The notes under the pieces: generated by a model
What the model saw: only the letters and a program-made list of their open reading frames with translations
Database searches by the model: none
What the model was told of the DNA's origin: nothing
From: Candidatus Eiseniibacteriota bacterium
GTDB taxonomy: Bacteria > Eisenbacteria > RBG-16-71-46
Reading direction: 5' to 3'
DNA length: 32,210 nt
Assembly (NCBI GenBank): GCA_016223045.1
Contig: JACRPT010000066.1
Span: forward strand, 1 to 32,210
Shown: positions 22,540 through 31,471 of the stretch, one piece after another
Position numbering within the stretch: position 1 is the stretch's first letter
How the letters are laid out: each line of letters starts with the position of its first letter
Made by a program: the position numbers and the translations under genes

Positions 22540-23715
22540 TTGAAGCGTGTCCGCCGCGCCCGCGCCGAAGGCCCGGCGCGCTCTGCGCTGCTGAGCCGGA
22601 TCCTGGTGGCCGACTCGGACAGCGCCGTGCTGCTGTGTGACCCGCGCGGCCGGGTCGTGGAGCTGAACGCGGCGGCCGCACGGCTGCTGGGGCTCGCCCC
22701 CGCGCAGGCCCGCGGCAAGCCCGCCGTGGAACTGATCCGCACGGTAGTGGCCGGCGACGACCCGGTGCGCGACGCCTGGCGGGCCGCCAGGACCGAGCGC
22801 GAAACGGTGCTGCTCGGGCGCCGGGGCGGGGAGATCCCGGTGCTGCTGCGCTCGCGGCGCTTCGGGAGGCCGCCCGCCCTGGTGCTCATCCTGCGGGACC
22901 TGACCCAGGCCCGCCGCATGCAGCAGGAGCTGCGCCGGCACGAGCGGCTCGCCACCCTCGGCCAGCTCTCGGCCGGGGTGGCCCATGAGATCCGCAACCC
23001 GCTGGCCGGGATCGGCACCAGCGCGCAGGTGCTGCTGCGGCGCTTCGAGCCGCGCGACGAGCGCGCCCGCTTCGTGCGGGTCATCCTCGACGAAGTGGCC
23101 CGCCTCGACCGCATCGTCACCAGCCTGCTCCAGTACGCGCGCCCGCGCAGCCCCGAGCTCACCGCGGGCTCGCTGGCCGCCTGTATCGAGCGCGTCCGCG
23201 GGCTTTCGGCCGACGCGGTGGCCCAGTCCGGCGTCGAGGTCGAGGTGGACGTGGCGCCGCGGCTCCCGCCGGTTTACATTGACACCGACCTCGTGGTGCA
23301 GGTGCTGCTCAATGTCACGCTCAACGCCGTACAGGCCATGCCGCAAGGCGGCCGGCTGCGCTACGAGGTGCGCGCGGTGCGCCGGCGGCCGCCGCCGCGC
23401 GGGCCCGGGCGCCGCTCCTCGGACGCGCCGCGGGGGCGGGCCGCTTCCGCGGCGGGCGGGTGGGGGGCGCTGCAGCAGGTGCGCGTGGGCGACACCGGCG
23501 CCGGCATCCCGCGCGGGCTGCTGTCCAAGCTGTTCGATCCGTTCTTTTCCACCAAGCCCCAGGGCACGGGGCTCGGTCTGTCCATCTCGCAGACCATCAT
23601 GCAGGAGCACGGCGGCTCCATCTCGGTGGCGAGCCGCGAGGCCCGCGGGACCACCCTGCTGCTCGACTTCCCCGTGGAGAAACGACATGGGAGCCCTCGA
23701 TCCGCACGGGCCTGA
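22540..23715 (+). CDS. NtrB-like PAS histidine kinase
   Basis: A soluble kinase of about 391 residues. An N-terminal PAS domain (VLLCDPRGRVVELNAAAARL) is followed by the dimerisation helix RHERLATLGQLSAGVAHEIR with the phosphoacceptor histidine, an N-box (QVLLNVTLNAVQAMPQGG), a G1 box (GDTGAGIP), an F-box (LFDPFFSTKPQGTG) and a G2 box GTGLGLSIS. The catalytic domain holds a basic, low-complexity insert of about 35 residues between the N- and G1-boxes. Start TTG 22540 has AGGGA eight bases upstream. The 3' end overlaps the sigma-54 activator, its evident partner; the pair resembles FlgS/FlgR and FleS/FleR, which turn on sigma-54 flagellar genes. The last dozen codons may be read-through caused by the neighbouring deletion. 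Confidence 0.9.
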   Translation: MKRVRRARAEGPARSALLSRILVADSDSAVLLCDPRGRVVELNAAAARLLGLAPAQARGKPAVELIRTVVAGDDPVRDAWRAARTERETVLLGRRGGEIPVLLRSRRFGRPPALVLILRDLTQARRMQQELRRHERLATLGQLSAGVAHEIRNPLAGIGTSAQVLLRRFEPRDERARFVRVILDEVARLDRIVTSLLQYARPRSPELTAGSLAACIERVRGLSADAVAQSGVEVEVDVAPRLPPVYIDTDLVVQVLLNVTLNAVQAMPQGGRLRYEVRAVRRRPPPRGPGRRSSDAPRGRAASAAGGWGALQQVRVGDTGAGIPRGLLSKLFDPFFSTKPQGTGLGLSISQTIMQEHGGSISVASREARGTTLLLDFPVEKRHGSPRSARA

Positions 23716-25058
23716 GCGAGTTCCTGCGCGACTCGAGCCTGAACGCCATCGCGGTGGCCAGCGGGAGCGAGGCGCTCGAGATCGTGCGCGAGCAGCCGGT
23801 GGATGCGGTGGTGCTCGACCTCAGGCTGGGCCGGGAGAACGGCCTCGACGTGCTCGAGCGCCTGCTCAAGGAGGAGCCCGAGCTGCCGGTCATCATGCTC
23901 ACCGCGCACGGCTCGGTGGAGGACGCGGTGCGCGCGGTGAGGCAGGGCGCCTACGGCTTCCTGCAGAAGGTGTCGAACTACGAGGCCCAGCTCGAGATCG
24001 AGCTGCAGCGCGCGCTCGAGCAGACGCGCCTCAAGCGCGAGGTCGAGCAGCTCCGCGGCCCGGACGCCGGCGCCCAGACCCTGATCGGCGAGAGCCCCGC
24101 CTTGAAGCGCGCGCTCCACCGGCTGGAGAAGGCGGGGAAGAGCTCCTCGGCGACCATCCTCATCTACGGCGAGACCGGCTCGGGCAAGGGGCTGCTCTCG
24201 CGTTACCTCCACGCGCACAGCGCGCGCGCCGCGGGACCCTTCATCGAGCTCAACTGCAGCGCCATCCCCGAGCAGCTGCTCGAGAGCGAGCTGTACGGCC
24301 ACGAGAAGGGCGCGTTCACCGACGCCAAGCGCTTCAAGAAGGGGCTGTTCGAGCTGGCCGACGGTGGCACGCTGTTCCTCGACGAGATCGGGGAGATGAC
24401 CGCGGGGCTCCAGGCCAAGCTGCTCCACGTGCTCGAGACCCGCACCTTCCGCCGGGTCGGCGGGAGCGCGGACATCACCGTGGACGTGCGGGTCATCGCC
24501 GCCACCCACCGCGACCTGCAGAAGGCGGTGGTCGAAGGACGCTTCCGCGAGGACCTCTACTTCCGGCTCAACGTGGTGCCGATCGAGGTGCCGGCGTTGC
24601 GCGACCGCCCCGAGGACGTGACCGCGCTGGCGCATCACTTCATCGCCCTGTTCTGCCGCGAGCTGGGGCGCCCGCCGGTGAAGCTCCATCCGGACGCGCT
24701 GCGGGCCATGCTCGACTATCCCTGGCCGGGGAACGTGCGCGAGCTGAAGAACGTCATCGAGCGCGTGGTGCTGCTCGAGGCCGAGGACGAGATCCGCCAC
24801 GAGCACCTGCCCTCCGAGCTGGCGCGCGGACGCGGGCGCGGCAGCGCCGCCGGCGGCACCGCCAGCGTGTTCCCGCCGGGCGTGGTGCGCCCGCTCACCG
24901 AGGTCGAGAAGCTCGCCATCGAGCACGCGCTGCGCGTGTGCGAGGGCAACAAGACGCGCGCCGCGCAGCTGCTCGGCATCTCGCGCCAGACCCTGCGCAC
25001 CAAGCTCAAGGAGTTCGCGCTGGAAGACGACCCCGAGGAGGCCACCGAGGGCGTCTGA
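23687..25058 (+). pseudogene. Sigma-54-dependent response regulator (FlgR/NtrC type), 5' deletion in the receiver
   Basis: The ATG at 23687, seven bases after GGAGA, is the natural start, but the body is in another frame from GAG at 23691: EPSIRTGLSEFLRDS. A receiver should open with about nine residues such as VLVVDD before EPSIR; that strand and the acidic pair are missing, about 26 bases by frame arithmetic. The rest is complete: phosphoacceptor VVLDLRLG, MLTAHGS, an AAA+ domain with Walker A GETGSGKG, the sigma-54 contact loop as GAFTDA (canonical GAFTGA), Walker [13 protein letters not shown], the arginine-finger region, and a Fis-type helix-turn-helix at GNKTRAAQLLGISRQTLRTK. The kinase gene precedes it and a sigma-54 promoter follows, so its target is probably the next operon. 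Confidence 0.8.
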
Positions 25059-25405: not shown

Positions 25406-25801
25406 ATGCCCCACATCCTGATTGTCGAAGACGAACCCAGCACCTCCTGGGCCCTGGCCGAGGGCCTCTCGGACGACGGCTTCACGATCGACACCTTCGC
25501 GACCGCCGAGGAGGCCTGGCGCTGGCTGCAGCGCGGCCGGAGCGACCTGGTGATCTCGGACCTGCGCCTGCCCGGCATGAGCGGCCTCGATCTCGCGAGG
25601 AAGCTCGCGCGTGGCCGCCACGCCCAGCCCGTGATCATCGTGACCGCCTACGGCTGCCCCGAGACCCAGCGCGAGCTGCAGCGCGCCGGCGTCTTCGAGT
25701 GCTTCTCCAAGCCGTTCCGCATCGACCAGCTCCGCGACTCCGTGCGGCGCGCGCTCGCGGAAGTCCCGACGCGCGCGAAGCCGCGCCGGCGGGCGGCATG
25801 A
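25406..25801 (+). CDS. Stand-alone response-regulator receiver
   Basis: A 131-residue protein that is only a receiver domain plus a basic tail. It opens MPHILIVEDEPSTSWALAEG with the acidic cluster, has the phosphoacceptor aspartate in LVISDLRLPGMSGLDLA, the switch threonine in VTAYG and the conserved lysine in CFSKPFRIDQL. There is no output domain, so it must act by binding a partner, as CheY or Spo0F do. It is the first gene after the sigma-54 promoter. Candidates to phosphorylate it are the stand-alone DHp protein (28250) and the hybrid kinase (29636) in the same operon. Its stop overlaps the next ATG (ATGA). CheY-like motor binding is possible but not shown. Confidence 0.92.
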   Translation: MPHILIVEDEPSTSWALAEGLSDDGFTIDTFATAEEAWRWLQRGRSDLVISDLRLPGMSGLDLARKLARGRHAQPVIIVTAYGCPETQRELQRAGVFECFSKPFRIDQLRDSVRRALAEVPTRAKPRRRAA

Positions 25802-26103
25802 AGCGCCGCGGACCGGGCGCCCGCCCCGCGACCGACCCGCGCCGGTGCCTGGCACGTGCGCTGGCCCGCTGCGCGGTGCGCGAGCGCCTGCTGCTCGCGC
25901 TGGTCCTGTTCGAGCGGTTGACCCTCGCCGAGGCCGCCGACGTGCTCGGCGTACCGGTGCGGCGCGTCCATCGTCTCTACGCCCGGCTGCTGTCCGACCT
26001 GCGCGATGCGCTGGCCGGCCGGCGGGCACCCGCCGCAGGCGGGTCCCGCGCCGCCGGTTCCCGTCCCGCCGCGCCGGCCGCGCGTCTCCGGAGGGCTTCG
26101 TGA
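25798..26103 (+). CDS. Stand-alone sigma-factor region-4-like protein
   Basis: A 101-residue protein. Residues 25-72 read as a sigma-70 region 4 helix-turn-helix: CAVRERLLLALVLFERLTLA, then EAADVLGVPVRRVHRLYARL. It parallels the region 4 of FliA encoded 2 kb downstream (QERLVVALYYYEHLTLKEIG, then ISESRVSQVHTRA), with the same spacing and the same LTL turn. There is no region 2, so it cannot melt promoters itself. Flanks are basic and proline/alanine-rich. It could bind -35 elements, the beta flap, or FlgM in competition with FliA. The ATG overlaps the receiver stop and its own stop overlaps the next ATG. Assignment of the fold is good, the role unknown. Confidence 0.7.
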   Translation: MKRRGPGARPATDPRRCLARALARCAVRERLLLALVLFERLTLAEAADVLGVPVRRVHRLYARLLSDLRDALAGRRAPAAGGSRAAGSRPAAPAARLRRAS

Positions 26104-26357: not shown

Positions 26358-27367
26358 TGCCTGCGCGCACGCCGCCCGAGCCGCGCCGCCCCGCGGGACG
26401 CACGCGGGGGGAGTCCGCGCCCGACGGCGGCGCCCGCCGCAGCCGCGCCGCGGGGGAGGGCACCCCGCCGCTGCGCGTGATGCCGGGACGCGCCCGCGCG
26501 GGCAGCGCCGCCGCCGGCGACCATCCGGCGCACTGGACGCGCCCGCGCGGGCGCACCGTCGTGGTGGCGAGCGGCAAGGGGGGCGTGGGGAAGAGCAACC
26601 TGTGCGCGAACCTCGCGGTCGCCCTGGGCGAGGCCGGCGCGCGCGTGCTGCTGCTGGACGGCGACCTCTCGCAGGCCAGCCTCGACCTGCTGCTCGGCCT
26701 GCATCCGCGCTACGACCTGCAGCACGTGCTCTCGGGCGAGAAGACGCTCGAGGAGATCGTGGTGACGGGTCCGCGCGGCGTGAAGCTCATCCCGGCGGCC
26801 TCCGGCGTGCCCGAGCTGGCCGACCTCGACGACTACCGGCGCGAGTGCCTGCTGCGCGGGCTCGGCGCGCTCGACGGCGAGGCCGACATCGTGCTGATGG
26901 ACACCGCCTCCGGCGTGTCGCGCCAGGTCACCTCGTTCTGCCTCGCCGCCGACGACGTGCTGGTGATGACCACGCCCGAGATGCCCGCGTTCTCCGACGC
27001 CTACGGGCTCATCAAGCTGCTCCAGGGTCAGGGTCTCAGGAAGGCCCCGCACCTGCTGGTGAGCCAGGCGGCCAGTCCCGAGGAGGCCGAGGAGACGGCG
27101 CACCGCATCCGGCTGGTCGCGCGCCGCTTCCTGCGGCTCGAGATCGAGGCCTGGGGCCACGTGCCCGAGGACGCCGCGGTGCCGCGCGCGGTGCGCCGCC
27201 AGGAGCCCGTGGTGACCGCGTTCCCCCAGTCGCCGGCCGCGGCGGCCTACCGCGCGCTGGCCGCGCGCCTGTTGCCTCCCGCACCGGACCCGTCGTTCGA
27301 CGAGCACTCCGACCCCGCCTACCCGCTCGCCGGCCTGCGCGGCGGCCGGCAACGCCTGGAAGCCTGA
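26357..27367 (+). CDS. flhG: Flagellar number regulator FlhG (FleN/YlxH), MinD-like ATPase
   Basis: A 336-residue protein. After a basic disordered stretch of some 60 residues comes the deviant Walker A VVVASGKGGVGKSNLCANLA (lysines at both ends), then VLLLDGDLSQASLDLLLGL with switch-I aspartate, the FlhG-typical HPRYDLQHVLSGEKTLEEIV, and the Walker B-type IVLMDTASGVSRQVTSF. FlhG is the ATPase that limits flagellar number and restrains FlhF and, in FleN form, the sigma-54 master activator. Directly followed by fliA as in many polar-flagellate genomes. A helical DQAR-type N-terminal motif is not clear, and flhF and flhA are not present here. Start ATG 26357 overlaps the previous stop. Confidence 0.9.
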   Translation: MPARTPPEPRRPAGRTRGESAPDGGARRSRAAGEGTPPLRVMPGRARAGSAAAGDHPAHWTRPRGRTVVVASGKGGVGKSNLCANLAVALGEAGARVLLLDGDLSQASLDLLLGLHPRYDLQHVLSGEKTLEEIVVTGPRGVKLIPAASGVPELADLDDYRRECLLRGLGALDGEADIVLMDTASGVSRQVTSFCLAADDVLVMTTPEMPAFSDAYGLIKLLQGQGLRKAPHLLVSQAASPEEAEETAHRIRLVARRFLRLEIEAWGHVPEDAAVPRAVRRQEPVVTAFPQSPAAAAYRALAARLLPPAPDPSFDEHSDPAYPLAGLRGGRQRLEA

Positions 27368-27380
27368 GGAGGTGACTCCC

Positions 27381-28253
27381 ATGCCACGTCCCGCCGCCGC
27401 CACGCTCGCCCGATCCACGCCGGCCCTGCGCGTCACCGGCCGGCGCCCCGCCGCGAAGCCCGCGCCCGCGCGCACGCCCGCGCCGGGCCGCGGCGCGCCG
27501 CGCCTGGTGCCGCCGCCCGCTCCGGTGACCTATTCCAAGGAGGACCTGCTCGCGCGCTTCGCACCGCTGGTCCGGCACGTGGTGGAGCGCGTGGCGGCGA
27601 ACCTCCCGCGCAACGTGGACCACGAGGACCTCTATTCGGCGGGAGTGCTGGGGCTGCTCGATGCGCACGCCAAGTTCGACACCGGCAAGGGCGTCAAGTT
27701 CGAGACCTACGCGGTGTGGCGCATCAAGGGCGCGGTGCTCGACCAGTTGCGTGCGCTCGACTGGGTGTCGCGCTCGATGCGGCGCAAGGCGCGAACGCTC
27801 GACGGCGTCACCCGGCGGCTCGACCAGAAGCTGGGGCGCGCGGCGTCCGAGGAGGAGGTGGCGCGCGAGCTCAGGATGTCGCGCGGGGACTTCTACCGCC
27901 TGCTCGACCACGTGCGCGGCGCCGTGCTGGTATCGCTGGACGAGAGCCGCTCGAGCGAGGACCAGGAGTCCTCGACGCTGGGCGACCATCTGCCCGATCC
28001 GCGCGCGGTGGACCAGGAGGCGCGCCTCGAGGAGGAGCAGACCCGGCTGGTCCTGCTGCGCACGCTCAACCTGCTGCCCGAGCAGGAGCGGCTGGTGGTG
28101 GCGCTCTACTACTACGAGCACCTGACGCTCAAGGAGATCGGGCGCGCGCTCGGCATCTCCGAGTCGCGCGTCTCGCAGGTGCACACGCGGGCGATGGTCC
28201 GCCTGCGGCTGCGGCTCCACCGCGCGCTGGGCGGAGAGGAGCTGGCCGCGTGA
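27381..28253 (+). CDS. fliA: Flagellar sigma factor FliA (sigma-28)
   Basis: A 290-residue group-3 sigma factor. After a proline/alanine-rich N-terminus of about 50 residues, not usual in FliA, come region 2 (VERVAANLPRNVDHEDLYSA, then GVKFETYAVWRIKGAVLDQL, which reads the -10), region 3 (WVSRSMRRKARTLDGVTRRL, SEEEVARELRM) and region 4 (LPEQERLVVALYYYEHLTLK with the recognition helix ISESRVSQVHTRAM). The ATG at 27381 follows a near-perfect AGGAGGTGA, better than the in-frame start nine bases earlier. Made from the sigma-54 operon and probably held by the FlgM-like protein, it should read promoters like that before csrA at 21855. Confidence 0.95.
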   Translation: MPRPAAATLARSTPALRVTGRRPAAKPAPARTPAPGRGAPRLVPPPAPVTYSKEDLLARFAPLVRHVVERVAANLPRNVDHEDLYSAGVLGLLDAHAKFDTGKGVKFETYAVWRIKGAVLDQLRALDWVSRSMRRKARTLDGVTRRLDQKLGRAASEEEVARELRMSRGDFYRLLDHVRGAVLVSLDESRSSEDQESSTLGDHLPDPRAVDQEARLEEEQTRLVLLRTLNLLPEQERLVVALYYYEHLTLKEIGRALGISESRVSQVHTRAMVRLRLRLHRALGGEELAA

Positions 28254-28666
28254 GCGAGCGTCCGACGAACCCCGCGATCGCCACGCCGCCGTGGGAGGCG
28301 CTGCGACTCCGGCTGCTCGGACAGGCCGACCGCCTCGAACAGGGCGGGCAGGCGCAGGCCGCGCGGGAGCTGCGCGGGCTGGTCGAGGTCTGGTGGGAGG
28401 AGCAGCAGGCCTGGGCGGCGAGCCTCGCGCGCGTCCTGGGCGTGCATCACGACATCAACAACGCGCTGGTGGGCGTGCGCGGCAACGCGCAGCTCATGCT
28501 CATGGGTTCGGCGGGCCAGCAGCCGGGGATCAAGGAACGATTGGAGGTCGTGCTCCGTGAGTCCGGTCGGATCAAGGAAGCCGCGTCCCGGCTCCACGAG
28601 CTCAAGGCCGTGATCGCGGGCGGTGCCCGCGACGGCGGACCGGGGCCCGCAGCCCGTGCGGCCTGA
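28250..28666 (+). CDS. Stand-alone DHp (HisKA-like) histidine domain without ATPase
   Basis: A 138-residue protein. From about residue 45 it forms two long helices like a histidine-kinase dimerisation domain. LARVLGVHHDINNALVGVRG followed by NAQLMLMG mirrors the H-box of NtrB-type kinases (AHEINNPL...GNAQLLL), with H67 as the likely phosphoacceptor. The second helix is IKERLEVVLRESGRIKEAAS. The protein ends about 20 residues later: no N, G1, F or G2 box, so no catalytic domain. It could be a phosphotransfer protein like Spo0B or ChpT, fed by the hybrid kinase and passing to the lone receiver. GTG 28250 overlaps the fliA stop (GTGA). Confidence 0.75.
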   Translation: MSERPTNPAIATPPWEALRLRLLGQADRLEQGGQAQAARELRGLVEVWWEEQQAWAASLARVLGVHHDINNALVGVRGNAQLMLMGSAGQQPGIKERLEVVLRESGRIKEAASRLHELKAVIAGGARDGGPGPAARAA

Positions 28667-29615
28667 GACGAACGCGCTGGCGCCGCCGCCGGTGGCGGTG
28701 GTGCGCGGCACCGACCCCCACGGGGCCGGGGCCGAGCGCCGCCGCGCTTCGCGTGCGCTGTGGCAGGCCTGCGAGGCGCTGCTCTCGGCCCCCGCCGACC
28801 CGCGCGCGCTGGATCGCGCGCTCGCCGGGCTGCGCCAGGCGTTCGACTGCGACGGCGTGGCGCTGCACGCCCGCGGTCCGGACGGGGAGATCGAGCCGTG
28901 GCACGCGTGCGGCGAGTGGCGGAGCGCGCCCGGCGACCTCAGGGACTGCATGACCGTGCCGCTGCTGTGCGGCGCGGAGCGGCTCGGCATCCTCGACCTG
29001 CGCGCGCGCGCCGGTCAGCGCTGGCGCCCCGCTCAGTTCGGGCTGGTGCGCGCGGCCTCCGGCGCGCTCGGCGCGGCGCTCGGCGCGCGGCTCGAGCTCG
29101 AACGCCTGCGCCGCCGCCCCGGGCGCGACCGGGTGACCGGGCTGCCCGACGCGAAGGCCTTCCAGGAGCGCCTGGCCGAGGAGCTGGCGCGCGTGCGCGC
29201 GCACGGCCCGGCACTGGCGGTCGCGCTGCTCGAGATCGACCACTTCGACGCGCTGCGCGCGCGCCACGGGCGCGAGATCGCGGACGCGGTGCTGGCCGAG
29301 GCGGCGCTGGTGCTCAAGCTGGCGCTGCGCGACGGCGACGTGCTCGCGCGGCTGGCGGGGGCGCGCTTCGCCGTGGCCCTGCCCGAGACCGATACCGTGC
29401 CCGCGCTGCGCTGCGCCGAGCGGGTGCGCCGCGCGGTCGAGGACCATCGTTTCGCGCGCGTCGGCAACCTGAGCGCCACCGCCGGACTGGCGGCCAGCCC
29501 GCGCGAGGGACTCGAAGCCGTCGAGCTCATGGAGAAGGTCGAGCGCGCGCTCGCGCTCGCACGCAAGGCCGGACGCCGCCGCGTGGCGGCCGCGCCCACC
29601 GCGCTCACCCAGTAG
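28656..29615 (+). CDS. GAF plus degenerate GGDEF protein with intact I-site (PelD-like layout)
   Basis: About 319 residues from GTG 28656; GTG 28623 is possible. Residues 35-150 form a GAF-like domain (CMTVPLLCGAERLGILDLRA). Residues 155-305 form a GGDEF domain: RDRVTGLPDAKAFQERL, LLEIDHFDALRARHG, then ARLAGARFAVALPETD. The active site GGEEF is replaced by AGARF (234-238), so it should not make c-di-GMP. The inhibitory-site motif R-x-x-D (RDGD, 225-228) lies exactly five residues before it, as in PleD, and would bind c-di-GMP. GAF followed by a dead GGDEF with an I-site is the layout of the receptor PelD. In this operon it probably feeds second-messenger level into motility control. Confidence 0.8.
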   Translation: MRPETNALAPPPVAVVRGTDPHGAGAERRRASRALWQACEALLSAPADPRALDRALAGLRQAFDCDGVALHARGPDGEIEPWHACGEWRSAPGDLRDCMTVPLLCGAERLGILDLRARAGQRWRPAQFGLVRAASGALGAALGARLELERLRRRPGRDRVTGLPDAKAFQERLAEELARVRAHGPALAVALLEIDHFDALRARHGREIADAVLAEAALVLKLALRDGDVLARLAGARFAVALPETDTVPALRCAERVRRAVEDHRFARVGNLSATAGLAASPREGLEAVELMEKVERALALARKAGRRRVAAAPTALTQ

Positions 29616-29635: not shown

Positions 29636-31471
29636 ATGGACCCGCTTCGACAGGGCACGCCCGAGATCCCGGACGAGGCCGGACCCGGCGCCCTCGAGCC
29701 GGCGCCGACGGGCGCCCCGGGGCTGGCCGAGGCGCCGGCGCGGGTGCTGGTGGTGGACGACGAGCAGACGGTCGTGGACGTGCTCCAGGAGTTCCTCGCG
29801 TCGCTGGGCTACGACGTGTCCATGGCCGCGAGCGCCGAGGCAGCCCAGCGCCTCATCCCGGAACTGCGGCCCGAGGTGGTCCTCACCGACCTCAACCTGC
29901 CCGGTCGGTCCGGGCTCGACGTCATGCGCTTCGCCAAGAGCGTGGACGAGGAGACCGTGGTCATCGTGGTGACCGGGCACGCCTCCACGACCTCCGCGAT
30001 CGATGCGCTGCGCCAGGGCGCCTACGACTACATCACCAAACCGTTCGAGCTGGACGACGTCCAGAAGAGCCTCGAGCGGGCGCTCGCGAACCGCCGGCTG
30101 CGCGCCATCAACCGCCAGCTGGTCGAGGAGCTGCGCCAGAAGAACGGGATCCTCCAGAACCATGAGCAGGAGCTGAAGGAGAAGGTGCGGCTGGCGACCT
30201 GGCAGATGAGAACCCTCTACGAGATGGGCAAGGAGATCAGCGCGAACCTGGAGCTGGCCCCCCGGCTCCAGATCATCGCGGCCAAGGCCGCGGAGCTGGC
30301 CGGGGCGCGGGCCGCGGTCGTGTACCTGCGGAACCACGAGACCGAGGAATGCCGCGTCGCCGCGGTCCACGGCCTCGAGCTGCCGCCCTCCGAGGAGCCG
30401 TGCACGCACTTCTTCGCCGCCGAGCGCACGCTGGGCTTTCCCGTGTTCGAGCAGCGCCCGGTGCGCCGCAATGCCGCGGACGGCGAGCCCGGCTTCGAGC
30501 TGCCGGCGCTGGGCGGTCTGAGCTTCCGCCAGATGCTGGCGCTGCCGCTCGCCACCGAGGGGCTCTCGATCGGCATGCTGGTGCTGCTCGACAAGCCGGG
30601 CGGCTTCACCGGAGAGGACGAGAGCCTGCTGGAGCTGTTCGCCTCGCAGGCGACGATCGCGGTGCAGAACTCGCAGCTGTTCGAGCACACCAAGAGCCTC
30701 GACCGGCTCAAGTCGGAGTTCGTCGCGGTGGTCTCGCACGAGATCCGCACGCCGCTCACCTCGGTCAAGGGCGCCGTCGAGCTGCTGTCCGACCACCGCT
30801 ACTTCGCGAACACCGACCAGCAGCACAAGCTCCTGAGCATCGCCCAGGCGAACGCCGAGCGGCTGCTGCTGCTCATCAACGACATCCTGGACTTCTCGAA
30901 GCTGGAGTCGGCCTCGCTCCCGATGGTCCTCGAGCGCCAGCGCCTCGAGCCGGTGGTCCGGCAGGCCGCGCAGAACCTGCGCACGCTCATCGAGGAGCGC
31001 CGGATCCAGCTCGACGTGGACCTCGCGGAGGACATGCCGGACCTGCTGCTGGACGCCAACCGCGTCGCGCAGGTGCTCACGAACCTGCTCTCGAACGCCA
31101 TCAAGTTCTCGCCGCCCGAGGGCCGTATCGAGCTGGGGGTGCGGTGCGAGCGGGAAACCGTGCGGGTGTGGGTGCGCGACTACGGCGAGGGCATCGCCGC
31201 GGAGGACGTGCCGAAGCTGTTCCGCAAGTTCTCGCAGATCGACTCCGGCTCCACGCGCAAGGTGGGCGGCACCGGGCTCGGGCTGGTGATCTGCAAGGGC
31301 ATCGTCGAGCAGCACGGCGGCACCATCGGCGTGGAGACCACGCCGGGCGAGGGCAGCACGTTCTTCTTCACCCTGCCCACCGCGGACTACGCGGGGGAGC
31401 ACGCGCGCGGCGCCGACAGCGGCCGCGCGGCGGCTTCGGGCACGGCCGCGGGCGAGCGCCCGGCCGCCTGA
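29636..31471 (+). CDS. Receiver-GAF-histidine kinase (N-terminal hybrid)
   Basis: A 611-residue soluble protein. Domains in order: receiver (about 35-150; VLVVDDEQ, phosphoacceptor D85 in VVLTDLNLPG, K135 in YITKPFE), a coiled-coil linker (150-200), GAF (about 205-350), the dimerisation domain with H368 in FVAVVSHEIRTPLTSVKGAV, and a HATPase with QVLTNLLSNAIKFSPP, DYGEGI, KLFRKFSQ and GGTGLGLVICKG. The receiver comes first, so the kinase is probably tuned by phosphorylation rather than passing phosphate onward. The C-terminal 25 residues are low-complexity. ATG 29636 follows ACGGAGG. It is the last gene of the sigma-54 operon; the output may be the DHp protein and lone receiver. Confidence 0.92.
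   Translation: MDPLRQGTPEIPDEAGPGALEPAPTGAPGLAEAPARVLVVDDEQTVVDVLQEFLASLGYDVSMAASAEAAQRLIPELRPEVVLTDLNLPGRSGLDVMRFAKSVDEETVVIVVTGHASTTSAIDALRQGAYDYITKPFELDDVQKSLERALANRRLRAINRQLVEELRQKNGILQNHEQELKEKVRLATWQMRTLYEMGKEISANLELAPRLQIIAAKAAELAGARAAVVYLRNHETEECRVAAVHGLELPPSEEPCTHFFAAERTLGFPVFEQRPVRRNAADGEPGFELPALGGLSFRQMLALPLATEGLSIGMLVLLDKPGGFTGEDESLLELFASQATIAVQNSQLFEHTKSLDRLKSEFVAVVSHEIRTPLTSVKGAVELLSDHRYFANTDQQHKLLSIAQANAERLLLLINDILDFSKLESASLPMVLERQRLEPVVRQAAQNLRTLIEERRIQLDVDLAEDMPDLLLDANRVAQVLTNLLSNAIKFSPPEGRIELGVRCERETVRVWVRDYGEGIAAEDVPKLFRKFSQIDSGSTRKVGGTGLGLVICKGIVEQHGGTIGVETTPGEGSTFFFTLPTADYAGEHARGADSGRAAASGTAAGERPAA

Follow-up and report, generated by a model that had tools for sequence, protein, structure and literature searches.

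Spo0B, which belongs to the Bacillus phosphorelay, has a vestigial C-terminal domain, and ChpT keeps a degenerate CA domain. Proteins with a HisKA domain and no ATPase domain have been recorded in an archaeal census as 'HisKA, no HATPase' (in P2CS, 'possible incomplete histidine kinase'), and phosphoacceptor, phosphotransfer and phosphatase roles have only been proposed for them (PMC5847659). In HisKA proteins, the residue following the phospho-acceptor histidine (H+1) is required for kinase activity (CrdS needs it for the autokinase reaction and can do without it as a phosphatase), the residue at H+4 is required for phosphatase activity, and a P376A substitution in the H-box of CrdS lowers phosphatase activity by more than half (PMC3510030).

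Here we describe HKd, a stand-alone DHp (HisKA) protein of 138 amino acids encoded at positions 28250..28666 (+ strand) of the window, the 32,210-nucleotide stretch of DNA that was analysed. HKd has a DHp-only architecture, strictly conserved His67 and Asn71 residues and a fixed operon position, and it is a real protein under selection.

The HKd gene and its protein

The HKd open reading frame starts with GTG at 28250, overlapping the fliA stop codon as GTGA, and ends with TGA at 28664-28666. HisKA is the sole Pfam match (residues 64-115, E 4.2e-5), and when the window sequence is used alone it scores 24.0 bits, short of the 26.9 cut-off; all 17 HKd orthologues match HisKA (PF00512), with a best E of 9.5e-8. 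The best NCBIfam match is NtrB, although only in part. In Pfam searches of the 17 sequences, neither an in-frame HATPase_c domain nor a PAS or GAF sensor domain was found in HKd or any orthologue. The protein ends approximately 15 residues past its second predicted helix (alpha2), and the gene directly downstream encodes a GAF-GGDEF protein, not a frameshifted ATPase. The earlier note described this gene as a kinase dimerisation domain without a catalytic domain and placed H67 in an H-box reading HHDINNALVG; both descriptions are correct, including the position and the residue numbering. Because HKd has no ATP-binding domain, self-phosphorylation is impossible.

The orthologue search took in 47 genomes of the phylum, 20 of which belong to the family of the window genome. 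Clear orthologues are present in 17 of these 20 genomes and in none outside the family, meaning that every orthologue comes from a single family. They are 115-144 residues in length, all occupy the same operon position, and their start codons mostly overlap or sit just past the fliA stop codon. A chance origin of the observation is excluded by these 17 same-position orthologues, their mean pairwise amino-acid identity of 53% and a dN/dS of about 0.27 for the core (codon analysis by a simple method).

The resemblance of the H-box to that of NtrB indicates that HKd derives from a kinase, and on that ground it could be taken for the remnant of a full histidine kinase in decay. This reading is close to refuted by the similar short length of the protein in 17 genomes, the dN/dS of its core and the lack of an ATPase remnant downstream. 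Truncation of a full kinase by a frameshift or an assembly error was rejected on the same uniformity of length and on the identity of the next gene. A full kinase as the ancestor at this site was also rejected, as fliA and the GGDEF gene, in the loci inspected in other families, are separated by HDOD and small proteins with no full kinase among them. Homologues carrying an intact HATPase in frame, which the earlier note held would tell against its proposal, were not seen among the 17 orthologues.

The H-box of HKd is highly conserved. The putative phospho-acceptor His67 (codon CAC, 28448..28450, + strand) is invariant in 17/17 sequences, as the earlier note had proposed to check, and is the canonical phospho-site by alignment; the adjacent His66 is also present, except for a Tyr in one genome. 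Position 68 (H+1) is Asp or Glu in all 17. Asn71 (28460..28462, + strand), at the H+4 position required for phosphatase activity in HisKA kinases (PMC3510030), is likewise invariant in 17/17, together with I69, N70, A72, L73, V74, G75 and G78. The position of the H-box proline is occupied by Ala in every orthologue. In EnvZ, H+7 and H+11 are kinase-regulator specificity sites; by that numbering they correspond to the invariant V74 and G78 of HKd. The retention of H67, the acidic residue after it and N71 makes it likely, as judged from sequence, that HKd is a phosphate-handling DHp protein.

An AlphaFold2 model of a single chain, built from the 17-sequence alignment, has a mean pLDDT of 82.2 and a pTM of 0.53. 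It predicts an N-terminal helix (residues 15-31; 28292..28342), a long helix alpha1 that bears H67 (residues 35-85; 28352..28504) and a helix alpha2 (residues 94-124; 28529..28621), all on the + strand. The predicted monomer is therefore a DHp-type helical hairpin with a short extra helix, a point in favour of the earlier note's interpretation. A Foldseek search of the PDB with this model returned nothing at E <= 0.001, the short hairpin being an uninformative query; the third-ranked match was the cytoplasmic domain of the ZraS kinase (E 2.1, probability 0.63). A profile search of solved structures gave nothing at E<=0.01, and its best match at E<=10 was the Leptospira LvrB kinase (0.35).

Operon partners, flagellar genes and C-termini

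HKd is the seventh of nine genes in the following order, all on the + strand: an NtrB-type PAS-HisKA-HATPase kinase (22540..23715), a conserved neighbour; an NtrC-type sigma54 activator with a receiver (23634..25058, start approximate); a lone receiver, or single-domain response regulator (25406..25801); a lone sigma-70 region 4-like protein of 103 amino acids (25792..26103); an FlhG/MinD-like ATPase (26369..27367, start approximate); a FliA/WhiG-family sigma factor (27372..28253); HKd; a GAF-GGDEF protein with a degenerate signature, AGARF (28656..29615, start uncertain); and a receiver-GAF-HisKA-HATPase kinase (29636..31471) in which the phospho-Asp, H-box and ATP boxes are intact. Many of these genes overlap or abut, and synteny is the same in 17 genomes as far as the contigs reach. 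The lone receiver and the receiver-kinase do share a gene run with HKd, as the earlier note stated, and orthologues of the 29636 kinase keep the receiver Asp, H-box and ATP boxes wherever these are visible. Among the NCBIfam matches of the lone receiver, CpdR ranks in the middle and scores well under the cut-off. Many loci of the family have the sigma-70 region 4-like protein, encoded after the lone receiver and ahead of the FlhG-like ATPase. Most of the family has a degenerate GGDEF signature that varies (AGARF, PGARF, SGDRF, EADRF and others), whereas several other families have GGDEF or GGEEF. The C-terminus of the GAF-GGDEF protein is Thr/Val/Ser-His in nearly all orthologues with a visible end (L035-L048) and Thr-Gln in the window.

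HKd could be the substrate of a split kinase, an extra phosphodonor with H67 phosphorylated in trans by either the 29636 kinase or the NtrB-type kinase through its ATPase domain. The same operon encodes intact ATPase domains, examples of split histidine kinases exist (PMC7656254, PMC3591291), and HKd keeps the acidic residue at H+1 that kinase chemistry requires. However, no ATPase-only partner gene adjoins HKd, both operon kinases carry an H-box of their own, and the H-box proline is replaced by Ala throughout. We regard this explanation as quite improbable.

A role in flagellar control, as suggested by the earlier note, is not borne out. The window genome (G000, 97.6% complete) lacks FlhA, an absence that concerns one gene in a draft genome. 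With the same qualification of one gene in draft genomes, FlhA is absent from 13 of the 20 family genomes, including that of the window and G021 (99% complete). It is present in the other seven (E about 1e-250), all of which have a second, separate fliA; several of them carry it and flhA on one contig. No sigma28-type promoters (TAAA-N14-16-CCGATA) were found in the window genome. In genomes of other families (G002, G004, G008, G018), flhA shares a contig with the operon and is at most a few kilobases away from it. Since FlhA is missing here and flhA adjoins the operon elsewhere, the operon appears to have once been a flagellar regulatory one and to have outlived the flagellum. The retention of a FliA/FlhG-type operon in genomes apparently without a flagellum is a caution against naming such loci flagellar.

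HKd ends in Arg-Ala-Ala (28655..28663, + strand). A terminal Ala-Ala is found in 16 of the 17 orthologues, preceded by a variable linker, and also in FliA (18/20), the lone receiver (17/20) and the receiver-kinase (7/12), including the window copies of FliA and the lone receiver. It never occurs on the NtrB-type, NtrC-type, FlhG-like ATPase or GGDEF proteins with readable ends. The background in sampled contigs of the window genome is 0/139 predicted proteins (1/158 with looser gene calling). In G021, 11/183 proteins end in Ala-Ala, among them the CheA, MCP, CheB and CheX-like proteins of one cluster (L124:5001-13391). The codons of the tail vary among orthologues. An overlap with the start codon of the gene downstream was rejected as the source of the tail, as most orthologues have no overlap and the codons differ. 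The tmRNA tag of the window genome is ADEQLAFAA, and the proteolysis of CtrA needs its C-terminal alanines (PMC4433202); the ssrA-like Ala-Ala ends are possible degrons. A bolder reading, which we hold to be very unlikely, is that an ex-flagellar operon whose flagellum was lost has turned into a proteolysis-linked phosphorelay: the lone receiver, the DHp-only phosphotransferase, the sigma factor and often the kinase would carry ssrA-like Ala-Ala tails next to a degenerate GGDEF protein, an independent likeness to the Caulobacter CckA-ChpT-CpdR-PopA/ClpXP circuit.

Loss of HKd within the family and its proposed role

The earlier note read the locus as a phosphorelay. In its obligatory form, a Spo0B/ChpT-type link, phosphoryl groups would leave the receiver of the 29636 kinase, pass to H67 and end on the 25406 lone receiver. 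One operon encodes every part, and 17 genomes conserve the whole set; H67 and the acidic residue at H+1 are kept, and CckA-ChpT-CpdR, in which a CA-degenerate phosphotransferase works alongside a lone receiver, provides a precedent (PMC9981736). However, the receiver of the 29636 kinase is N-terminal, whereas typical hybrid kinases carry theirs C-terminally, and the lone receiver has VTAYG in place of the FATGUY-type motif of some relay receivers. In addition, G021 has Glu and G035 has Ser at the phospho-Asp position of the lone receiver (loci L039 and L046) while retaining HKd, although each is a single-residue reading from a draft assembly in which a sequence error is possible.

The converse is also observed. 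G036 and G037 have a short stretch only between the fliA and GGDEF genes, and no HKd orthologue was found elsewhere in these two genomes; both keep an intact lone receiver (Asp present) and an intact receiver-kinase. (The contig of G022 stops just past fliA, short of the place where HKd would lie.) A concatenated tree puts G036 and G037 among the HKd-bearing genomes, which makes two losses of the gene the most likely history; the node uniting G037 with G025 and G027 has 98% support, and the placement of G036 has 68%. HKd is dispensable in two lineages. The Asp losses with HKd kept and the HKd losses with the receiver kept argue against an obligatory link to the lone receiver. Of the phosphorelay reading, the conserved H67 stands and the fixed relay to the 25406 receiver is doubtful; the obligatory relay as a whole is unlikely. 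This pattern of losses is compatible with a phosphatase or redistribution role.

With the kinase and receiver kept after both losses within the family, a modulator fits better than an obligatory link. Our tentative preference, held at slightly less than even confidence, is that HKd is an auxiliary DHp protein that docks on the receivers of the operon and drains or redistributes phosphoryl groups. HKd would probably form a homodimeric four-helix bundle, and the dimer would dock on same-operon receiver domains, the candidates being those of the 29636 kinase and the NtrC-type activator and the 25406 lone receiver. It may then remove phosphoryl groups by Asn71-assisted hydrolysis or, alternatively, take them back onto His67 and pass them onward; either way HKd would tune the module. 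A simple phosphatase is opposed by the Ala found in all 17 sequences at the place of CrdS P376, and a pure phosphatase by the acidic H+1 residue, which is kept though a phosphatase would not require it.

DHp domains dimerise, and HKd might instead act as a competitor or scaffold, forming heterodimers with a full kinase or binding receivers with no phosphoryl chemistry. Its dispensability in two lineages agrees with such a role, and a protein whose level is controlled could well carry such a conserved -AA end. The invariance of H67 and N71 would then be needless, however, and we think the scaffold distinctly improbable. The phosphotransfer, phosphatase and competitor models are separable with a few purified proteins.

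Comparison with known systems

HKd was compared with the phosphotransferase families to which the earlier note likened it. Like HKd, Spo0B is kinase-derived and without autokinase activity, but the vestigial C-terminal domain of Spo0B is absent from HKd, and the Spo0B Pfam models match none of the 17 HKd members at E<=1. ChpT, of the CckA-ChpT-CtrA/CpdR relay, is also DHp-based and in the company of a lone receiver, and CtrA of that relay depends on C-terminal alanines for its proteolysis (PMC9981736, PMC4433202), but HKd has no counterpart of its degenerate CA domain, and the ChpT (HPTransfase) Pfam model matches neither HKd nor its orthologues. Monomeric HPt (PF01627) gives no match in these proteins either. 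The Spo0B/ChpT-like label thus fails as family membership by sequence, and a functional analogy may still hold.

NtrB/ZraS-type kinases share the H-box and DHp sequence with HKd, which differs in having no ATPase domain and in the Ala for the H-box proline. HKd relatives in contigs of named genomes amount to two loci, both encoding kinases with ATP-binding motifs. Within the phylum, 8 of the 13 non-orthologous matches are CA-less, mostly PAS-GAF-DHp proteins. The nearest of these (L018, L024-L027, L029) are CA-less like HKd but carry sensor domains at the N-terminus, and their H-box still reads NNPL. Proteins in which PAS and/or GAF sensors precede an H-box and no ATPase domain follows are seen at L018, L019, L021, L024-L027 and L029, in about ten genomes of the phylum.

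The archaeal 'HisKA, no HATPase' proteins have, like HKd, a DHp domain with a conserved His and no ATPase domain (PMC5847659). They carry PAS/GAF or other sensors, whereas HKd has nothing but a short N-terminal helix ahead of the DHp and always occupies one position in a sigma-factor operon. With its invariant phospho-site, fixed operon and natural loss mutants, HKd offers a minimal, sensor-free case; its closest known kind is this already annotated class, of which HKd is a minimal form.
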